Source of the DNA: a virus
IMG/VR virus record: IMGVR_UViG_3300046512_000193
Span: 1 to 33,649 of that record
Direction: 5' to 3' (one strand)
Length of the DNA stretch: 33,649 bases
Shown here one piece after another: positions 22,718-33,020 of this stretch; within the stretch, counting starts at the first letter, position 1; each line of letters starts with the position of its first letter. The position numbers and the translations under genes were made by a program. The notes beneath the pieces were generated by a model. That model was not told where the DNA came from and did not search any database. It saw only the letters and a list, made by a program, of their open reading frames with translations.

Positions 22718-25525
22718 ATGCAGGCAAGGAAAATCACCCTGATCGAGATCGGGGCGGGCGCGCTTCCGGAAGAGACGCCTGTGGTGCCGCGCTATGCGTC
22801 GTGGTTCCCGGTGATCCATACGTCGCCAGAGATCCCTCCAGTCGACGGCGTCATTCCGGAACCCATCGCCGACGGCGTACTGATCGAGTGGACGCCGGTG
22901 AATCAGGCCGGCGTGATCTACATCATCGAGCGCGGCCCCACCCAGCAGGGGCCGTGGACCGAGATCCACCGCACCACTGACACCCGATACCTATATAGCG
23001 ACGGCAGCGGCCAGACCTGGTTTTTCCGGATCACTGCGGCGGTGCGCGGCAAGCCGGGGCAGGGCACGGTCATCGAAGCCACACCGGCCCCTACGACGTC
23101 TGACCTGGTCGAGCAGCAACAGAAGCTCGCGCAGGAGATCGCTGACAGGTTCGAGGCCGATGCGCAGGAGGCTGCTGCGCGGGCCGCCGGCCTGGCCCAG
23201 GCGGCCGAGGACCTGGCCGCCGAGTCCCAAGCGCGCGCTGCGGGCGTCAGTCAGGCAATGGATGCAGTAGAGGCCGAAGCGCAGGCGCGCGGGGAGGCGC
23301 TGCTGAACGAGCAGACAGAGCGCACTGCGGCCATCACTGAGTTGGCAGAGATCCAGCAGAGCGACCATGAATCGTTCTCTCGCGCGCTGTCTGAGGTTGC
23401 CGCTGGCAGCGGCGCTCAGTTCGATAGCAAGCGAGTCTGGTACTTCGACGATTCCGTAGAGGGGTGGACCGGGAACGGTGACCCCGGCTGGGCCGACGGG
23501 TGGCTACGCCCGGCGAACGCGTCGTCGTTCCCCTACGTCCAGTCGCCGGATGCCCTGGAGGTGGACGGAGCCACCTACAGCTACGTCAAGCTGCGCGTCA
23601 GGCGCGTGGGCACCCCCGAATGGGCCGGTGTCGTGCAGTGGGTGGTGGCGGGCGATCTCGATTGGACCCCGTCCAAGTCCATGGCGCTGAGCGAGCCAGT
23701 CTGGGACCGCAACGGTATCGCCACCGTCACCGCCGCTGACATCCCGTGGGTAACGGCCCAGGTGGAGGCATTTCGCCTACAGCCCGGCTCTGCGCAGACA
23801 GTGTCGGACTACTACCTGATCGACTGGGTGGCTGTGGGCCGGCCAACGCCAGGTGCCGGCGTGGCGCTGGTGCAGCAAGAGGTGTCAGCGCTGGTCGACG
23901 CAGACCGTGCCGAAGCGACCCAGCGCGAGACGCTGGCGGTCCAGCTGCGTGGTGACTACGAAGGTGGCGACCTCGGGAGTGTTTCCACCGGCCTGATCGC
24001 GATCGAGCGAGACGCGCGAGTGGAAGCCGATGAGGCGATGGTCAGGGTAGTGGAGGTCATTAAGGCGCGCCTGCCGCCCGGTGAAGGCGCACTCGCCACG
24101 GAAGCAAGCGTCATATCGGAGCGCGAAGCGCGCGTATCTGAAGACCAGGCCTTGGCGGAAGCCAGCCAGCAGATCAAGGCACGACTGCCCGACGGTGACG
24201 GGATGGTGGCATCTGTCGAGGCGCTGGAGAGCGTAAGCGCCAAGGTGGATGACACCGAGCAGGGCTTGGTGGCCATGGGTGAGCGGGTCGTCTCGCTGAC
24301 CGCCCAGCTCGATGGCCCGCATGCGGGCGATGAAGATACCTTCGCCGGCGACGAGGACACGTATGCCGGCACCATTACGGTCTACTCGGTCATTGCGGAC
24401 GGTGATCGCGCCGTCGGCAAGTTGGTCGATCAAGTCAATGCCAACCTGGGCGCTTTTGAGGCATCGGCGACCAGCCAGTTGGTAGCGATGGCCACGGCCG
24501 TGGCGGCATCTGCAGAGAAGGTTGACGTAGTGCAGGCCGAGCTGGACGGGAAGGCATCAGCAGAGTCCGTGAGTCAGCTGCGTAGCTCGGTAGAGCAGAA
24601 CGCAGACGGCATCGAGGCGGTCGCCGAATCCTTGCAGTCGGTGAAGGTGGATCTGGACGGGAAGGCCAGCGCCCAAGTGGTGTCCGGCATGGAGACGCGC
24701 GTCCAGCAGAACGAGCAGGGCCTGATACAGGTCCTGGCTCGGGCATTCATGCAGGTAATGGCCGATGCCGGTGGTGGCCCGCTGATTGGCGGCATGGTGA
24801 TCGACAACGACGGGCACGTCGTCAATACCAGGTTCTTGAGCACTACGTTTGAGGTTGTGGCACCTGGTGCTGCCAGTGGCATGGAGCTGCGCGACGGTTA
24901 CCTCCGGGTGTGGGGAGGTAACTCCCAGCGCATCATCGGCAACGGATTCGGTGCCGATGGTCTCATGGACTACTTCGGCCCCAACGTGGGCGTTGCCGCC
25001 GCCAACAAGTTCAACGCCACGATGTGGATGGATCGCAATGGTGACGCGTACTGGGGTGGAACCCTGCGCGCTGGTGCGATCAACAGCTCCGGCCAGTTCA
25101 ACCTCAACAACGCGAACTGGGACAGCGCCAGCAACATCAGCGTGATTCACGCGGGCTCACAAGGGCGCACGAAGGTGGTGCTGTGGTCATGCAGGCTCAG
25201 CGCTGAAGTCATTTCGTTTGGCAATTCGCCCCAGCCGACGCGCACCGGGACGATGCGCCTTCGTCTGTGGCGCGACGCCACGCTGCTGTGGGACGAGAGC
25301 ATCACCGCCTCATCGGCCAACGTCTACGAGGTAGACAGCAACCGAACGCTCGCCACCCAGACCTGGCAGTGGCCACAGCGCTCATTCACCGATACGACCA
25401 GCGCCACCGGGAACATCCCTTACCGCATGCAGATCGATTTCGTGGGCGGAACCCGCTACGACATCCCCGCGTTCGTTGTGGGGGCTGAGGCCAGCGTTGC
25501 AGTTTTGAACATCATCGAAAGCTAA
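22718..25525 (+). CDS. J-like central tail fibre / host specificity protein C-terminal type (935 aa)
   Basis: Domains in order: a short N-terminal region, a fibronectin-III-like unit at about 50-120 (VLIEWTPVNQAG, TWFFRITAAVRG), a coiled coil at about 130-225, a beta domain (WYFDDSVEGWTG, about 238-375), a region like the DUF1983 part of lambda J (LAVQLRGDYEGGDLGS), internal repeats (IKARLPxGxG near 447 and 485; DLDGKAS-type near 607 and 644) and a C-terminal beta domain. It lacks the hub part of lambda J, so the hub role may rest with the two proteins before the tape measure. It likely forms the central fibre that contacts the host. Confidence 0.8.
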   Translation: MQARKITLIEIGAGALPEETPVVPRYASWFPVIHTSPEIPPVDGVIPEPIADGVLIEWTPVNQAGVIYIIERGPTQQGPWTEIHRTTDTRYLYSDGSGQTWFFRITAAVRGKPGQGTVIEATPAPTTSDLVEQQQKLAQEIADRFEADAQEAAARAAGLAQAAEDLAAESQARAAGVSQAMDAVEAEAQARGEALLNEQTERTAAITELAEIQQSDHESFSRALSEVAAGSGAQFDSKRVWYFDDSVEGWTGNGDPGWADGWLRPANASSFPYVQSPDALEVDGATYSYVKLRVRRVGTPEWAGVVQWVVAGDLDWTPSKSMALSEPVWDRNGIATVTAADIPWVTAQVEAFRLQPGSAQTVSDYYLIDWVAVGRPTPGAGVALVQQEVSALVDADRAEATQRETLAVQLRGDYEGGDLGSVSTGLIAIERDARVEADEAMVRVVEVIKARLPPGEGALATEASVISEREARVSEDQALAEASQQIKARLPDGDGMVASVEALESVSAKVDDTEQGLVAMGERVVSLTAQLDGPHAGDEDTFAGDEDTYAGTITVYSVIADGDRAVGKLVDQVNANLGAFEASATSQLVAMATAVAASAEKVDVVQAELDGKASAESVSQLRSSVEQNADGIEAVAESLQSVKVDLDGKASAQVVSGMETRVQQNEQGLIQVLARAFMQVMADAGGGPLIGGMVIDNDGHVVNTRFLSTTFEVVAPGAASGMELRDGYLRVWGGNSQRIIGNGFGADGLMDYFGPNVGVAAANKFNATMWMDRNGDAYWGGTLRAGAINSSGQFNLNNANWDSASNISVIHAGSQGRTKVVLWSCRLSAEVISFGNSPQPTRTGTMRLRLWRDATLLWDESITASSANVYEVDSNRTLATQTWQWPQRSFTDTTSATGNIPYRMQIDFVGGTRYDIPAFVVGAEASVAVLNIIES

Positions 25526-25537
25526 GAAGGAACAGAT

Positions 25538-26845
25538 ATGGCGCTCCGGCTCATTGACCTCGATACCCCGAGGCCTAACAACCATCGTGGGGATCCAACG
25601 CGCACGGCGAACGGGATCACGAACGAGAACATGCAGGCAATCGACCAACGACTTGGCGCGCTGGAGGGCGGCACGCCTGCGATCGATACGCGCCTGGACG
25701 CTCTCGACGATGCGGTGGAAGAGCTCGGCGATTCCATGGGGGCGGTTGGAGATTCACTCGCTCAGGAAAGTTTGGCCCGTGCCGCTGCCGATCTCCAGTT
25801 GCAGCAGGCCATCAGTGCGGCCGTCGCCGGCACGGAGGTAGTTGCGGGTCGCATCGTTGGCCGGAACCGATTCATCAACGGCGACCTGCGGATATGGCAA
25901 CGCCGCACCTCAGGCCGCGTAGGCGCTGGAGCTGGGACCCTTGGCAGTGAGGCATTCTGCGCAGACCGCTTTACCTTCTCGGCTTTGAACTGCACTCACG
26001 ACGCGTCGCGGGGTGTAGTGGGGAGCGGTGGAACTACGCTGCCACCGCAGACCACCTATGCACTAATTCACAACGTCAGCGGTGCGTCAGCGACAAGTGC
26101 TGCATGGGGCGGACAACGTATCGAGGGCGTGCGCTCCTTGCAGGGCAAGGTCACGTTCTCCATCGAGCTTAGCGGGACCGTCGGCAATAAAGTTGGGATC
26201 CGCGTCATTCAGAATTTTGGGACGGGAGGTGCGCCTTCTGCCGAAGTCTCAACCATTGCCGGTGTGCTGACGTGCGGCGCCAACCCGGAGCGGAAGTGGC
26301 TCACGTTCGACATTCCTAGCACGGCTGGCAAAACTCTTGGAACGAACGGAAACGACTTCCTCTACTTTGTGTATGACATGTGCGGCGCGGGCTACTCAGG
26401 GCAAATTAGCGCCCAGAACGGGGCATATGCGTTCTCTGATTTCCAGATAGAGATCGGTGATCTGGCCACGAATTTCGAGTTCAGGCCCTATCCCTTGGAG
26501 CTTCTGTTTTGCCAGCGCTACTATGAGATTGTACCGATGGGTGGCATTTCGGGTGTCACCTACACAGCAAACGGCGATACGCGTGGTGCGCTTGTGAACT
26601 ACAAAGTTCCTAAGCGTGGAACCCCATCTATCACCCGCACTGGTACTCTTGATGTTATTGCAACTGGTTCGGCAAGTGACGTTGCCAATGTGAACCTCGG
26701 TACGGTTAGCCTCAATGGCGATACGAACCGTGTGTTTGTGAGCAGTATCAGCAATTTTGTGGGCCTCGCGGGCGTGGGTGGCGTTGCCATTTGGGGCGAC
26801 AACCGCAGCCAGTTGCTGACCGCCCTTATCGACGCGGAGTTCTAA
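25538..26845 (+). CDS. Receptor-binding tail fibre protein (435 aa)
   Basis: Residues 1-100 contain a coiled coil (LDALDDAVEELGDSMG). At 110-126 the motif NRFINGDLRIWQRRTSG is seen, which I recall as the start of the C-terminal carbohydrate-binding-like domain of many phage fibres (N..I.GD..IWQR), followed by ADRFTF. The rest is strand-rich and ends LLTALIDAEF, the usual fibre end. Base use toward the 3' end is less GC-rich than the neighbouring genes, as often seen in exchanged host-range domains. Confidence 0.82.
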   Translation: MALRLIDLDTPRPNNHRGDPTRTANGITNENMQAIDQRLGALEGGTPAIDTRLDALDDAVEELGDSMGAVGDSLAQESLARAAADLQLQQAISAAVAGTEVVAGRIVGRNRFINGDLRIWQRRTSGRVGAGAGTLGSEAFCADRFTFSALNCTHDASRGVVGSGGTTLPPQTTYALIHNVSGASATSAAWGGQRIEGVRSLQGKVTFSIELSGTVGNKVGIRVIQNFGTGGAPSAEVSTIAGVLTCGANPERKWLTFDIPSTAGKTLGTNGNDFLYFVYDMCGAGYSGQISAQNGAYAFSDFQIEIGDLATNFEFRPYPLELLFCQRYYEIVPMGGISGVTYTANGDTRGALVNYKVPKRGTPSITRTGTLDVIATGSASDVANVNLGTVSLNGDTNRVFVSSISNFVGLAGVGGVAIWGDNRSQLLTALIDAEF

Positions 26846-26847
26846 GC

Positions 26848-27342
26848 ATGTACCAGCTCACCGAAGATCCGGACGTCGTGTGTCTCCTGACGCCGCACGA
26901 TGAAACCCGAGTTGCGCGGGGGACATGGCTGTGGAGGAATTACGAAGAATGGTGCGCAGGCGGAAACAACGCCGACCCGGTGCCGGAGCTTGCGCCGCCG
27001 TTCTTGCCGAATTCCCCTGCGCATCATCGCGCGATTCGCGATGCCGCATGGAAGTGGATGGCCTCGATCGTGATGGAGCGCGGCTACGACAGCATCGAGA
27101 CGTGCTGCAGCTACTACAACAGCAGCGTGGAGCGGTACAGGCGGGAGGCCCGGGCTATGGTCGCGTGGCGCGACGCAGTGAATCAGGCGCTGGAGGCGCT
27201 GGTGCTGAACCCTCCGGTTGGCGTCGACACTTGGGAAGAGGTCTGCCCGCTGTTGCCGCAGCCTGGCGTATTCAACTGGCCGGTGAAGGTTGACCTGCCG
27301 CTGTTCGCCCCCGAAGCACCGGTCACACTATCGGTAGCCTGA
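26848..27342 (+). CDS. Tail fibre assembly-like protein (164 aa)
   Basis: The ATG at 26,848 lies directly after the fibre stop. The N-terminus MYQLTEDPDVVCLLTP with TWLWRNYEEWCAGGNN resembles the NR.W.EY..WLA.GNTP pattern of fibre assembly proteins. Residues about 65-125 are helical with a repeated Arg/Trp pattern (REARAMVAWRDAVNQAL), as in DUF4376-type proteins. These proteins are thought to help fibre trimer formation. Assignment is by pattern and by position after the fibre gene. Confidence 0.6.
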   Translation: MYQLTEDPDVVCLLTPHDETRVARGTWLWRNYEEWCAGGNNADPVPELAPPFLPNSPAHHRAIRDAAWKWMASIVMERGYDSIETCCSYYNSSVERYRREARAMVAWRDAVNQALEALVLNPPVGVDTWEEVCPLLPQPGVFNWPVKVDLPLFAPEAPVTLSVA

Positions 27343-27370: not shown

Positions 27371-27457
27371 CACATGGTTGTTCGATCACGCCACGTTTCT
27401 TTTCTCGGGCGTACCGTCGAGCTCCCGGGGGGGACCGATCAGAAAAGGAGCACCGGC

Positions 27458-27880
27458 ATGGCCCTTCAAGCGATTGCCTACGCCAGTGAGGCGGTCCTAG
27501 ACCTGGGACCGGATGGGCTCGAGCAATTAGCTCAGCGGTCCTTCGTCCGCAACCAGTTGGCGGGCGTCACAGGACTGCTGCTATTCGACGGCAGGCGGTT
27601 CCTTCAGTACATCGAGGGACCTGACGACGGCATGGCGGTCATCTACTCGCGCATCACCTATTCCCGCCAGCACACCGACCTGATTGAACTCGCGAGGGGC
27701 AGGGTAGCCCAGCGCCGTATGCCGTATTGGTCCATGCGGTTGATACCGGTGGAAGACACCCAGCTCAGGGAGGCTGCCTTCAGCGACTGGACGAGCCTGA
27801 CCCGGCGCGCGGTAGGGTCGCGGGCCTCGCCGACGGGAGTGGAACGGCTCGCCACCCTTGTGGCTCCTTACCTGGCTTAG
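27458..27880 (+). CDS. Short BLUF blue-light photoreceptor protein (140 aa)
   Basis: The ATG at 27,458 follows AAAAGGAG. Residues 1-95 match the BLUF (blue light using FAD) fold: IAYASEA with Tyr8, a helix ending FVRN with Asn32, GVTGLLLFDGRRFLQYIEGP with Gln50, and a YWSM segment with Trp91 and Met93. These positions equal those I remember as the flavin-switch residues of the short cyanobacterial PixD proteins. About 45 more residues form a helical cap and there is no effector domain. BLUF proteins sense blue light through FAD hydrogen bonding and pass the signal to partners by protein contact. It lies after the tail genes, in the accessory zone of the prophage; the partner is unknown. Confidence 0.9.
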   Translation: MALQAIAYASEAVLDLGPDGLEQLAQRSFVRNQLAGVTGLLLFDGRRFLQYIEGPDDGMAVIYSRITYSRQHTDLIELARGRVAQRRMPYWSMRLIPVEDTQLREAAFSDWTSLTRRAVGSRASPTGVERLATLVAPYLA

Positions 27881-28059
27881 GGGGGCGCCTTGTCACCATT
27901 TCGCAGGCGCTTAACGGCGACGGGTGCAAATTCCTGCTCATAAACGGGGGAGACGCCACCCAGCGTGGGTGGGCTCCAGCTGGACGCGGCGCGGATCCGC
28001 AGGCGCTCGGGCGGTAATAGATTCGCCCTGAGGCCTTGCGGGTCCGCGATGCGGACCAT
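27877..28059 (-). CDS. Possible small protein, convergent with BLUF gene (60 aa)
   Basis: An ATG-started frame encodes MVRIADPQGLRANLLPPERL and then TLGGVSPVYEQEFAPVAV and a basic end. Its stop overlaps the BLUF stop by four bases, in convergent orientation. The sequence looks more protein-like than a random antisense frame, but no ribosome site is clear and no family is recognised. It could be real, a remnant, or chance. Confidence 0.25.
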   Translation of the reverse strand: MVRIADPQGLRANLLPPERLRIRAASSWSPPTLGGVSPVYEQEFAPVAVKRLRNGDKAPP

Positions 28060-28430: not shown

Positions 28431-28907
28431 TCAATAACCACTTGGAGGGCCGACCGGGAAGCTCTGTGCCTGCGCGAAAAGTAGCCCAGGCCCCTTGAGA
28501 CGGTAGTCCGTACCGCCGTAGGCGTGCCGATCTCCGGCCCAGCCCATCTCGACCAGTTCCTCCATCGCGTGCCGAACATCTGCCCTCGGCGTGCCTGGGG
28601 GCAATCGTGCAACGATCATATCGGGGGTGACCCACTCGTAATCGTAGTAGCGAAGCGCCCGGATGCAATTGATCTGAAGCGAGGACGGCTCGAAGGGTGG
28701 TAGTGCGGCGACGGGCCTTTTAGGCTTCGGAACCGGCGGAGCTTCGACCGGCTTCGGCCTTGCAGAAGTCAGCGCTGCCCAGCCCTTGTTCAGCAGAACG
28801 CCAATCGTCACGCCGACCAAGAACGCCCACAAGAACTCCCAAGGGTGCTGTGCAATCAGTGGCCAGTTCTTCTGGAGGGTATCCAAGTCAGGCATTGCCG
28901 TATCCAT
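28431..28907 (-). CDS. Membrane-anchored winged-helix protein (158 aa)
   Basis: On the minus strand, against the phage late genes. Residues about 20-46 hold one membrane segment (PWEFLWAFLVGVTIGVLLNKG), followed by a Pro/Lys-rich linker (55-75) and a winged-helix-like domain at about 78-148 (INCIRALRYYDYEWVTPDMI, then RADVRHAMEELVEMGW and a YGGTDYRLKGPG wing). An ATG at 28,895 is an alternative start. A membrane tether plus winged helix on the opposite strand suggests lysogenic expression, perhaps superinfection exclusion or sensing, but no family is recognised. Confidence 0.65.
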   Translation of the reverse strand: MDTAMPDLDTLQKNWPLIAQHPWEFLWAFLVGVTIGVLLNKGWAALTSARPKPVEAPPVPKPKRPVAALPPFEPSSLQINCIRALRYYDYEWVTPDMIVARLPPGTPRADVRHAMEELVEMGWAGDRHAYGGTDYRLKGPGLLFAQAQSFPVGPPSGY

Positions 28908-30836: not shown

Positions 30837-30919
30837 CCCCTTTCGCAAGCGGGTCAAGTAATCAACTCCTGCATCATCCGCACCCGCTCCGCAACGTGCG
30901 GCTTCGCGTGGAAACGCAT
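30837..30919 (-). pseudogene. Frameshifted relic of a second integrase C-terminus
   Basis: On the minus strand the reading VAERVRMMQE, then after a frame change VDYLTRLRKG, aligns with the intact integrase end LAERTRMMQE-WADYLDRLRTG. The DNA ACTCCTGCATCATCCGC at 30,865-30,881 is identical to 31,311-31,327 inside the integrase gene. A gap of 4 bases relative to the integrase explains the frame change, and the position of the catalytic Tyr reads Phe. I see no further integrase similarity upstream, so this is a short tail of an older, related integrase. Confidence 0.7.
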
Positions 30920-31060: not shown

Positions 31061-31255
31061 GTAAGGCGCTGGGCGCGCGCACGGGCGGCTTCGTTATGGC
31101 AGCAGGCCGATGCCTTGGACATCGATCTAAGCGGCGACTGGCGCGCTCGGGTGCGGCGGGGAAGGGGAGCGGCGCGACTCCGTACCGATGCTGCCAAGTT
31201 CGACAGCATCGCCAACCGCCTTGAGTCCTTCTGGGACGATCAGGCAGCAGCCTGA
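31061..31255 (+). pseudogene. Orphan coding-like remnant, convergent with integrase
   Basis: A frame opened by a TAG at 31,058-31,060 reads ARAASLWQQADALDIDLSGD and later TDAAKFDSIANRLESFWDDQ before its TGA at 31,253-31,255. The composition is that of a real protein, but there is no ATG or ribosome site, so the 5' part seems lost. Its last 16 bases overlap the integrase 3' end from the other strand. No family is recognised. The rest of 30,787-31,060, apart from the integrase relic, shows no credible gene. Confidence 0.35.
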
Positions 31256-32457
31256 CCAGCCCGTAACGGCACCACGTTGCCGGTGCGCAGCCGGTCCAGG
31301 TAGTCCGCCCACTCCTGCATCATCCGCGTCCGCTCCGCCAAGTGCGTGGTGCGGTTATACGCGCGCCCGTTCGGATCCTTCACCGCGTGCGCGAGCTGGT
31401 GCTCGATGATGTCCGGGCGGAAACACAGCACTTCATCCAGCAGGGTGCGCGCGGTCGCGCGGAATCCGTGACCGGTGACGGTGTCCTTGTCGAACCCCAT
31501 GACACGGAGGGCAGCCAATACGGCAACCTCGGACATCGGCCGCTTCTCGCTGCGGCCGCCGGGGAATACGTATTTTCCCTGACCAGTCCAAGCATGGAGC
31601 TCTCGAAGAACTTCCACCGCCTGCCGAGCCAGGGGCACGATGTGTGCCTGCCGCATCTTCATGCGCGCGGCCGGGATGCTCCACAGGCCGGCATCCAGAT
31701 CCACCTCCGCCCATTCCGCCTGGCGCAGCTCGCCGGGCCGGACGAACACCATCGGTGCTAGCTTCAGCGCGGCCTGCACGGGCGGGGTGCCGTGGTAGGC
31801 GTGCAGGGCACGCAGCAGGCCACCCAGCTGGACTGGATCCACCACCGCGGCATGGTTCTTCTCAGGGGGCGGGATCAGTGCGCCGCGCAGGTCGGCGACA
31901 GGGTTGCGTTCCGCTCGGTCAGTGGCCACGGCGTACCGCATCACCTGGCCGCAGTTCTGCATGATCCGATGAGCCGACTCGAAAGCGTCCCGGGCCTCCA
32001 TCCGGCGGGCGACCTGCAGGAAGTCCGACGCCTTGAGCTCTGCGGCGCGCCGTGAACCCACGAAGGGGAACACGTCCTTCTCGAACCAGGCCTCGACCTT
32101 CTTCTGGTAGCCCGGCACCCAAGGGCGACCGGCCAGCCACTCGCGCGCGATCACTTCGAAGCTCTCGACGAGGTCGGCGGCCTTCGTGGCAGCTGCGGCC
32201 TTGCGCTGCTCGCTGGGATCTACGCCGCTGGCCAGCAGCCGCCGAGCATCTTCCCTGGCCTCCCGCGCCATGGCCAGGCTCACGTCGGGGTACAGGCCGA
32301 GGGTCAGCAGCTTCTCCCTGCCGGCGACGCGGTATTTCCAGCGCCAGCTCTTGGCGCCAGCAACGGTGATGAGGAGAAACAGGCCGCCGCCGTCAGCAAG
32401 CTTCTGAGGCTTGACGGCAGGCTTGGCGCGACGAATGGCAGCGTCGGTCAGGGGCAT
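31240..32457 (-). CDS. int: P4-type tyrosine integrase
   Basis: The 405-residue product opens MPLTDAAIRRAKP with LADGGGLFLLI (the DUF4102 arm-binding domain), has a SAM-like core-binding domain at about 100-185 and a catalytic domain with Arg240 (VRPGELRQAEW), HGFR (His330, Arg333), HQLAH (His353) and the nucleophile Tyr367 (AYNR). It cuts and joins attP and attB. Its 5' end faces the ssrA 3' end 160 bases away, as is usual for P4-type integrases that use tRNA or tmRNA genes. The repeats upstream are probable binding sites. The gene looks intact. Confidence 0.97.
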   Translation of the reverse strand: MPLTDAAIRRAKPAVKPQKLADGGGLFLLITVAGAKSWRWKYRVAGREKLLTLGLYPDVSLAMAREAREDARRLLASGVDPSEQRKAAAATKAADLVESFEVIAREWLAGRPWVPGYQKKVEAWFEKDVFPFVGSRRAAELKASDFLQVARRMEARDAFESAHRIMQNCGQVMRYAVATDRAERNPVADLRGALIPPPEKNHAAVVDPVQLGGLLRALHAYHGTPPVQAALKLAPMVFVRPGELRQAEWAEVDLDAGLWSIPAARMKMRQAHIVPLARQAVEVLRELHAWTGQGKYVFPGGRSEKRPMSEVAVLAALRVMGFDKDTVTGHGFRATARTLLDEVLCFRPDIIEHQLAHAVKDPNGRAYNRTTHLAERTRMMQEWADYLDRLRTGNVVPLRAGQAAA

Positions 32458-32610: not shown

Positions 32611-32640
32611 ACCGTCTAATGGTGGAGGTGGGCGGAATTG
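32611..32640. other. Probable prophage attachment core at ssrA 3' end
   Basis: The prophage integrase gene stops short of the tmRNA 3' end, whose T-arm and CCA end (32,620-32,645) are typical targets. A near copy of ACCGTCTAATGG (32,611-32,622) occurs at 32,506-32,517 with one mismatch. The second att copy would be left of the window, so the core cannot be defined here. Confidence 0.4.
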
Positions 32641-33020
32641 AACCGCCGTCCGAAGGCACTCCATCCCCGGTACTACATGCTTAGCTCACCGTTGAATCTC
32701 GCCCTGTGGCAGCACGGTGTGCAAAGCGCACCCCAGGACCAGCCTGCTTTAGTTAAGCCGTGACTGACAGGCAGCCATCACAGCCGGTTCCGTGATAATG
32801 ACCCTACATCTACGAGCACGGGCACAAGTAGGTTCGGGGGTTCGCCTAAGGCGGCTGTAGAACTTAACGCACTTGCTGCTGTTTAGGCGGCGAGGCGGAA
32901 GTCCGAACCGTAGTTGTCGTCGTTGGCAACTAAAAGTTTGCTGCTGGATTTACGAGGAAAGCTGCCCCCTCGGCATGCACCAAGTAACTTCACAACCCCC
33001 GTCGAAACCAATGCACCCCC
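32620..33020 (-). ncRNA. ssrA: tmRNA
   Basis: On the minus strand the RNA starts GGGGGTGCATTGGTTTCGAC and ends CACCTCCACCA with CCA encoded. The 5' GGGGGTG pairs with the 3' CACCTCC as the tRNA-like acceptor stem, and a TTCAATTC T-loop precedes it. The tag frame at 32,883-32,927 begins at GCC and encodes ANDDNYGSDFRLAA then TAA. tmRNA rescues stalled ribosomes and tags the products for ClpXP. It is a host gene; its 3' end seems to be the phage integration site. Confidence 0.98.
32883..32927 (-). other. tmRNA tag-peptide reading frame
   Basis: Resume codon GCC (32,925-32,927 on minus), then AAC GAC GAC AAC TAC and so on to TAA (32,883-32,885). The encoded tag ANDDNYGSDFRLAA ends in the LAA needed for protease recognition; ANDDNYGSDF is typical of xanthomonads from memory. 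Confidence 0.93.

Follow-up and report, generated by a model that had tools for sequence, protein, structure and literature searches.

The window, by which we mean the whole stretch of DNA that was analysed, is a virus record of 33,649 bases in which terminase, portal, major head, tape measure and tail proteins were recognised with PHROG profiles. A tail protein (phrog_2589, positions 22718-25525, plus strand) and a tail fibre protein (phrog_4492, 25538-26845, plus strand) are followed by an open reading frame without assigned function (26791-27342, plus strand), which has a 52% relative in the sister phage L004, and then by a gene for a BLUF protein of 140 residues (27458-27880, plus strand). 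Beyond the BLUF gene lie a palindromic element (27940-28056), a cargo-zone reading frame to which the Pfam and PHROG scans of the ORF list assigned no function (28431-28907, minus strand), an arylsulfatase (PF00884; 29206-30786, plus strand) as second cargo gene, a tyrosine integrase recognised by both Pfam and PHROG (31240-32457, minus strand) and the host tmRNA gene (32620-33020, minus strand), which is the integration target and whose 3' end holds a 14-base attachment core, TGGTGGAGGTGGGC, at 32620-32633. A copy of the arylsulfatase with 94% identity was found in the host genome G205 (L046:17190-18749), where its neighbour is another BLUF and the surrounding stretch includes a serine recombinase and a RepB-like gene. 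Just beyond the sulfatase, a 36-base repeat (89%; 30865-30900 and 31311-31346) looks like the remnant of an integrase C-terminus, which would fit the replacement of an earlier element at this spot.

The same phage is present in a second virus record of 42,962 bases (G001), in which the compared proteins (324 to the integrase) were 99.9-100% identical to those of the window, and the core TGGTGGAGGTGGGC recurs at the far end of that record (42317). The core was also located at both ends of the sister phage G004 (107 and 42327), at the far end of G406 (40086) and twice in the host genome G266 (804252 and 854174), where a BLUF gene at 851109 lies between the two copies; it was absent from G405 and G408, two of the six records searched. 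From base composition, chance would supply about 0.001 copies of the core in 43 kb and 0.1 in 4.4 Mb. A reversed control word also occurs twice in the 4.4 Mb of G266, so that the core count in this genome is not in itself proof, and the attachment argument rests on the position of the core exactly at the tmRNA end and on the flank TCTAC that L055, L058 and L219 have in common after the far-end core. On these sequences the window phage is a tailed temperate phage, predicted to integrate at the 3' end of the tmRNA gene of its host. The first-pass annotation had described the BLUF gene as carried by a prophage between the tail genes and the integrase; the site agrees with the PHROG tail families before the gene and the tyrosine integrase after it, and carriage by a prophage is supported by the surrounding phage genes, by the core repeats in the same phage, a sister phage and a host chromosome, and by the same slot elsewhere.

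The Pfam BLUF profile PF04940 matched residues 4-93 of the protein encoded at 27458-27880 with an E-value of 1.1e-18 and 67.6 bits, against a curated cut-off of 25 bits. Tyr8, Asn32, Gln50, Trp91 and Met93 are all present and are invariant or nearly invariant across 23 aligned sequences. The AlphaFold model built with this alignment (mean pLDDT 89.5) predicts two helices (100-107 and 127-138) after the BLUF domain and no enzyme domain, consistent with the short PixD-type layout. When the model was compared with PDB structures by Foldseek, the top matches were Slr1694/PixD and Tll0078 (E 1.5e-11, 24-25% identity), and all 50 of the matches listed were BLUF-containing proteins. A sequence search of the PDB returned 21 sequences named as BLUF receptors or BLUF-bearing enzymes, including three bare-named entries that we take to be BLUF proteins. 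The ATG at 27458 is a likelier start than an in-frame upstream ATG at 27374, as the window gene and five sister genes align from Met1. An AGGAG ribosome site was read at 27446-27450, and the alignment has AAGGAGC or GAGGAGC as the ribosome site of BLUF in five sister phages. The reading frame is thus a genuine short BLUF protein of the PixD/BlsA type with its switch residues intact, and the first-pass claims of a BLUF photoreceptor, of five switch residues at PixD-type positions and of a ribosome site of its own are borne out by profile, alignment, fold and sequence, the response to light being putative. Neither a failed profile match nor evidence that the gene lies in host DNA beyond the prophage, two outcomes that would have spoken against the first-pass reading, was seen.

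Upstream of the BLUF gene, a leader (27383-27457, plus strand) is conserved in five sister phages (L003-L007); no consensus match to a sigma-70 promoter or a terminator was found near the gene, the conserved leader included. The palindromic element beyond the gene, likewise conserved, has its arms at 27991-28003 and 28034-28047, and reads GCGGATCCGCAGG ... CCTGCGGATCCGC in sister phages. As a structured RNA it was rejected: both partners differ in 8 of 51 pairs, but the energy term for covariation (0.17) lends no support, and no Rfam family was matched. In L061, L063 and L064 the element adjoins cargo other than BLUF, the stretches fetched from these loci containing the DNA-damage protein SRAP and no BLUF, and it is treated here as a putative cargo-border feature. 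An integron cassette was likewise discarded: words resembling GTTRRRY and RYYYAAC flank the window BLUF by eye, but the sister phages lack them in the alignment, which points to chance.

A search with the window BLUF retrieved seven viral loci, six at 83-100% identity and one at 52%; in five of the seven the gene lies between tail genes and an integrase, while L008 gave no integrase match and L007 neither match. The integrase of the window was used to fetch 76 viral loci with a related integrase, of which 13 have BLUF close to that gene (14 BLUF genes in all, as L072 has two), so the slot is variable, filled in some phages and empty of BLUF in relatives. A BLUF profile scan identified 57 loci in 56 virus records; the BLUF cut-off was passed by all 50 of the records tested, and separately by the remaining six. 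Of these 50 records, 20 have an integrase on the outer side of BLUF at most 10 kb away, 13 have it elsewhere, and in 17 none was detected. In nine of those 20 the GpJ tail gene could be placed, and each time BLUF lies between it and the integrase. These arrangements place BLUF inside a phage in part of the 50 records, and in the remainder such a location is likely. The genes occur in phages with different tails and integrases, and the search for phage-borne BLUF proteins in the same context that the first-pass annotation had proposed showed many further phages with a gene of this kind in this slot. Beyond what that annotation had described, the gene thus belongs to a large phage-borne set, some members of which have lost switch residues. 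Other cargo was observed in this slot in sister phages, namely a Schlafen AlbA_2/HATPase protein (L003:8772-10364), a carboxymuconolactone decarboxylase-family protein (L005:11013-11468) and an aspartyl protease (L006:7188-7715).

Among 50,697 phage records no relative was found for three different BLUF queries, and a viral structure library gave no match at E up to 0.001. The plasmid search returned 271 records, all below 60% identity, and named genomes gave five loci, the best at 47%. All five phage BLUFs scanned matched one PHROG, itself without a named function. Two phages carry two different BLUF genes in tandem (L072:5837-7205 and L149:8001-9620), and single phage BLUFs were observed with Arg in place of Trp91 (L074:2491-2919) and with Ile in place of Tyr8 (L183:7962-8417). 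Profile A2, used for the viral scan, was derived largely from phage BLUF sequences, and the genome rows are the top hits of two phage queries, so that the virus-rich clade in the BLUF tree, a 64-row fork with support of 85/89 only, is partly a sampling effect.

Selection on the window gene was estimated against five sister genes, giving dN/dS values of 0.104-0.112 (Nei-Gojobori) over synonymous distances of 0.69-0.91. A ratio of about 0.11 denotes purifying selection and argues that the gene is kept for its protein. BLUF is a recurrent, selectively maintained phage cargo.

The residues of the flavin switch were counted in 107 distinct BLUFs of 120-200 residues, a set that leaves out BLUF pieces shorter than 120 residues (L014/L045/L211, L031, L221) and L194, a viral reading frame of 616 residues with Tyr8 and Gln50 kept and Glu at position 91. 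Of the 107, 89 keep all five switch residues, 41 of these coming from viral records or prophages and 48 from genomes; three more (one genome row, two viral rows) carry a single change of another kind. The other 15 combine Phe at position 8 with Ala or Ser at position 50 (L088, L105, L166, L169, L171, L174, L176, L181, L184, L187, L188, L192 and L195-L197). The change extends beyond these two positions: Ala stands at position 66 in all 15 and in none of the other 92, and position 41 is Thr or Ala in all 15 versus Leu in 91 of the others and Val in one. Leu41 and Ile66 presumably line the flavin. Asn32, Tyr51, Glu53, Trp91 and Met93 are kept throughout the 15. The twelve members included in the tree form one branch (support 100/99); its sister is an intact BLUF from the host genome G277. 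A structure prediction for one protein of this rebuilt-pocket branch was poor (mean pLDDT 55.6).

Among the 107, twelve of the 15 rebuilt-pocket proteins come from viral records and three from host genomes, all of the 15 standing in viral records or prophage-like loci. The locus in genome G189 is a prophage in which central tail fibre J, SRAP, BLUF and a tmRNA gene with the core were recognised, together with an integrase that shares 81% identity with that of the window; the same genome carries two other BLUF matches, one of which (L020) reads as intact. The gene in G134 is accompanied by SRAP and by a tail match that is weak (28%). Close to the gene in G381, families of phage lytic tail proteins and endolysins are matched by one protein, and two other reading frames match nothing; a phage origin is likely here. 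Pairwise dN/dS among 11 members was 0.057-0.182 in 53 of 55 pairs, the remaining two being one pair at 0.70, based on three differences only, and one saturated pair. Judged by their residues and these ratios, the proteins of the branch are probably insensitive to light yet as constrained as the intact ones, and their retention implies that light sensing is not required for keeping every phage BLUF.

Laboratory variants offer a parallel to the branch. One passage of PMC6695109 reports Slr1694 Q50A and AppA Q63E to be locked in a pseudo-lit state, and describes a double Tyr-Gln mutant of BlsA as unlike the Gln mutant, such mutants being insoluble; a passage of PMC3915823 states that removal of the Gln prevents the signalling state. 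These accounts differ on the consequence of losing Gln50, but both passages imply that the light switch is lost. Y8F is described in a passage of PMC10799861 as altering the photoreaction. The branch thus constitutes a natural set of BLUF switch variants resembling laboratory mutants (e.g., TePixD Y8F, PDB 8i98), a resemblance that offers a direct test of signalling without light and of which state is the output.

Paralogues of the window protein occur in genomes of the host family (that of Stenotrophomonas sp. ISL-67, labelled Lysobacteraceae), with up to ten BLUF matches in one genome (G277), which means that a signalling network is available for a phage BLUF to plug into. They belong to the same protein family, with 39-66% identity to the window protein among those fetched; the switch residues are intact in 48 of 49 genome rows and several read as chromosomal clusters. 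Host chromosomes with several BLUFs close together were observed at L047:6125-16472, L218:4215-9926, L220 and L221, and host clusters adjoin a putative manganese catalase and ferritin-like stress genes (names by reading). A response regulator is convergent with BLUF in host loci of G277, G173 and G287 (in the last, BLUF is cut by the end of the stretch), and in G266 a weak response-regulator match (E 1e-5) lies on the same strand as the host BLUF, 439 bases away. No response-regulator neighbour was detected at viral BLUF loci with one response-regulator fragment as query, which is a weak test.

The reading that we favour, and consider reasonably probable, is that the window gene encodes an intact short BLUF blue-light receptor carried as lysogenic-conversion cargo between the tail genes and the integrase of a tmRNA-integrating temperate phage, where it would alter a host regulator by protein contact. 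The protein would bind FAD and form the usual red-shifted state in blue light, upon which its C-terminal helices would change their binding to a host protein, in the manner of PixD, which works through PixE, and of BlsA with Fur. The partner is probably a host regulator already serving the host BLUF paralogues, and the behaviour of the lysogen towards light and stress may shift as a result in surface growth, motility, oxidative stress or iron. A protein of the rebuilt-pocket branch would hold the output state, or occupy the partner, without light.

One competing account starts from the neighbours. In the sister phages the tail genes are followed by SRAP (minus strand), BLUF (plus strand), the palindromic element, small genes and the integrase, in this order; a strong SRAP match was found in 15 of 50 records searched and is the divergent neighbour of BLUF in all 15, and SRAP is present in 10 of 13 BLUF-bearing integrase loci versus 15 of 63 without BLUF. 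Combined with the handling of abasic sites by YedK-type SRAP (PMC9436759), this speaks for a light-coupled DNA-damage module, in which BLUF and SRAP would link light or photo-oxidative stress to the protection of phage or host DNA. We nevertheless regard such a module as unlikely: the window phage has no SRAP beside BLUF, and carries an arylsulfatase in its cargo zone; SRAP often occupies the same slot without BLUF, so that adjacency may only mirror slot order; and eleven further records, excluded from the 15, have weak SRAP matches only, ten with one on the BLUF strand.

Slightly less likely still is a light-dependent switch between lysis and lysogeny, in which BLUF would act on the phage repressor or integrase and light would trigger or block induction. 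The 20 records of 50 that have an integrase at most 10 kb outward of BLUF are compatible with this, but the BLUF gene belongs to a cargo zone and no repressor gene was recognised next to it, it occurs with varied tails and integrases, and phages retain a branch that is apparently blind to light. The first-pass annotation had suggested both an effect on host behaviour and a light-dependent choice of lysis or lysogeny; both are hypotheses, and the data favour the former, a light-driven induction switch being made less likely by the gene being cargo and by the persistence of blind forms. That BLUF is a passenger without benefit, acquired from host BLUF clusters, is more doubtful again: host genomes do contain many BLUFs, and on the host chromosome of G205 a BLUF 66% identical to the window protein stands beside a broken BLUF, but a dN/dS of about 0.1 over the synonymous distances given above and the repeated presence of the gene in separate phages argue against neutral carriage. 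Finally, although IMG/VR records can include host flanks and the window itself ends in host DNA (the tmRNA gene), a location of the gene in host DNA outside the prophage is largely refuted and barely credible, since BLUF lies between tail genes and integrase and inside the core repeats (the far end of G001 with the tmRNA end of the window; G004; G266).

Host conversion through BLUF, the reading preferred here, can be carried one step further, tentatively and with clearly less confidence than the proposal for the window gene itself. Temperate phages whose hosts are of the Lysobacteraceae type may have recruited the BLUF scaffold to rewire host BLUF signalling, mostly with intact receptors and, in one branch, with a rebuilt chromophore pocket (Tyr8 to Phe, Leu41 to Thr/Ala, Gln50 to Ala/Ser, Ile66 to Ala) that could serve as a constitutive signal, as a decoy for host BLUF partners or as a sensor of something other than light. 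Light reading in bacteria is tied to surface life, motility and stress, and phage light-receptor genes with a recurrent place and under strong selection would let infection change how a non-photosynthetic bacterium reads light. The data suggest that viruses use BLUF to alter the response of their hosts to light or stress.

Among known systems, PixD of cyanobacteria (Slr1694, Tll0078) has its length, fold and switch residues in common with the window BLUF. PixD is chromosomal and acts with its partner PixE in phototaxis, whereas the window BLUF is phage cargo. BlsA of Acinetobacter baumannii, described in PMC5955987 as a short BLUF that acts by contact with Fur, is similar in having a C-terminal output part, a likeness by that description and not by sequence, and is unlike the window BLUF in being chromosomal. 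As for carriage by viruses, PMC4844311, a review of bacterial blue-light sensing, contains no word beginning with phage, PMC5334351 has BLUF only in its reference list, and PMC12122733 and PMC3835674 have no BLUF passage. Within full-text literature on BLUF or photoreceptors with phage or prophage, a scope that leaves subscription papers and preprints mostly outside, two papers were pertinent in the passages concerned. In PMC10564846 the BLUF Pfam domain is noted on two large viral scaffolds from rain, linked to Flavobacteriaceae, which resemble the window in having BLUF on viral DNA, in a passage without analysis of gene, context or function; a passage of PMC3509220 suggests that phage DNA brought in the bluF region of E. 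coli, and the bluR-bluF locus described there has a BLUF-EAL protein beside prophage genes which, unlike the window gene, is not the cargo of an intact phage. By family the window protein is an ordinary BLUF; what is new is a phage-borne set with a recurrent slot and a branch in which the pocket has been rebuilt.
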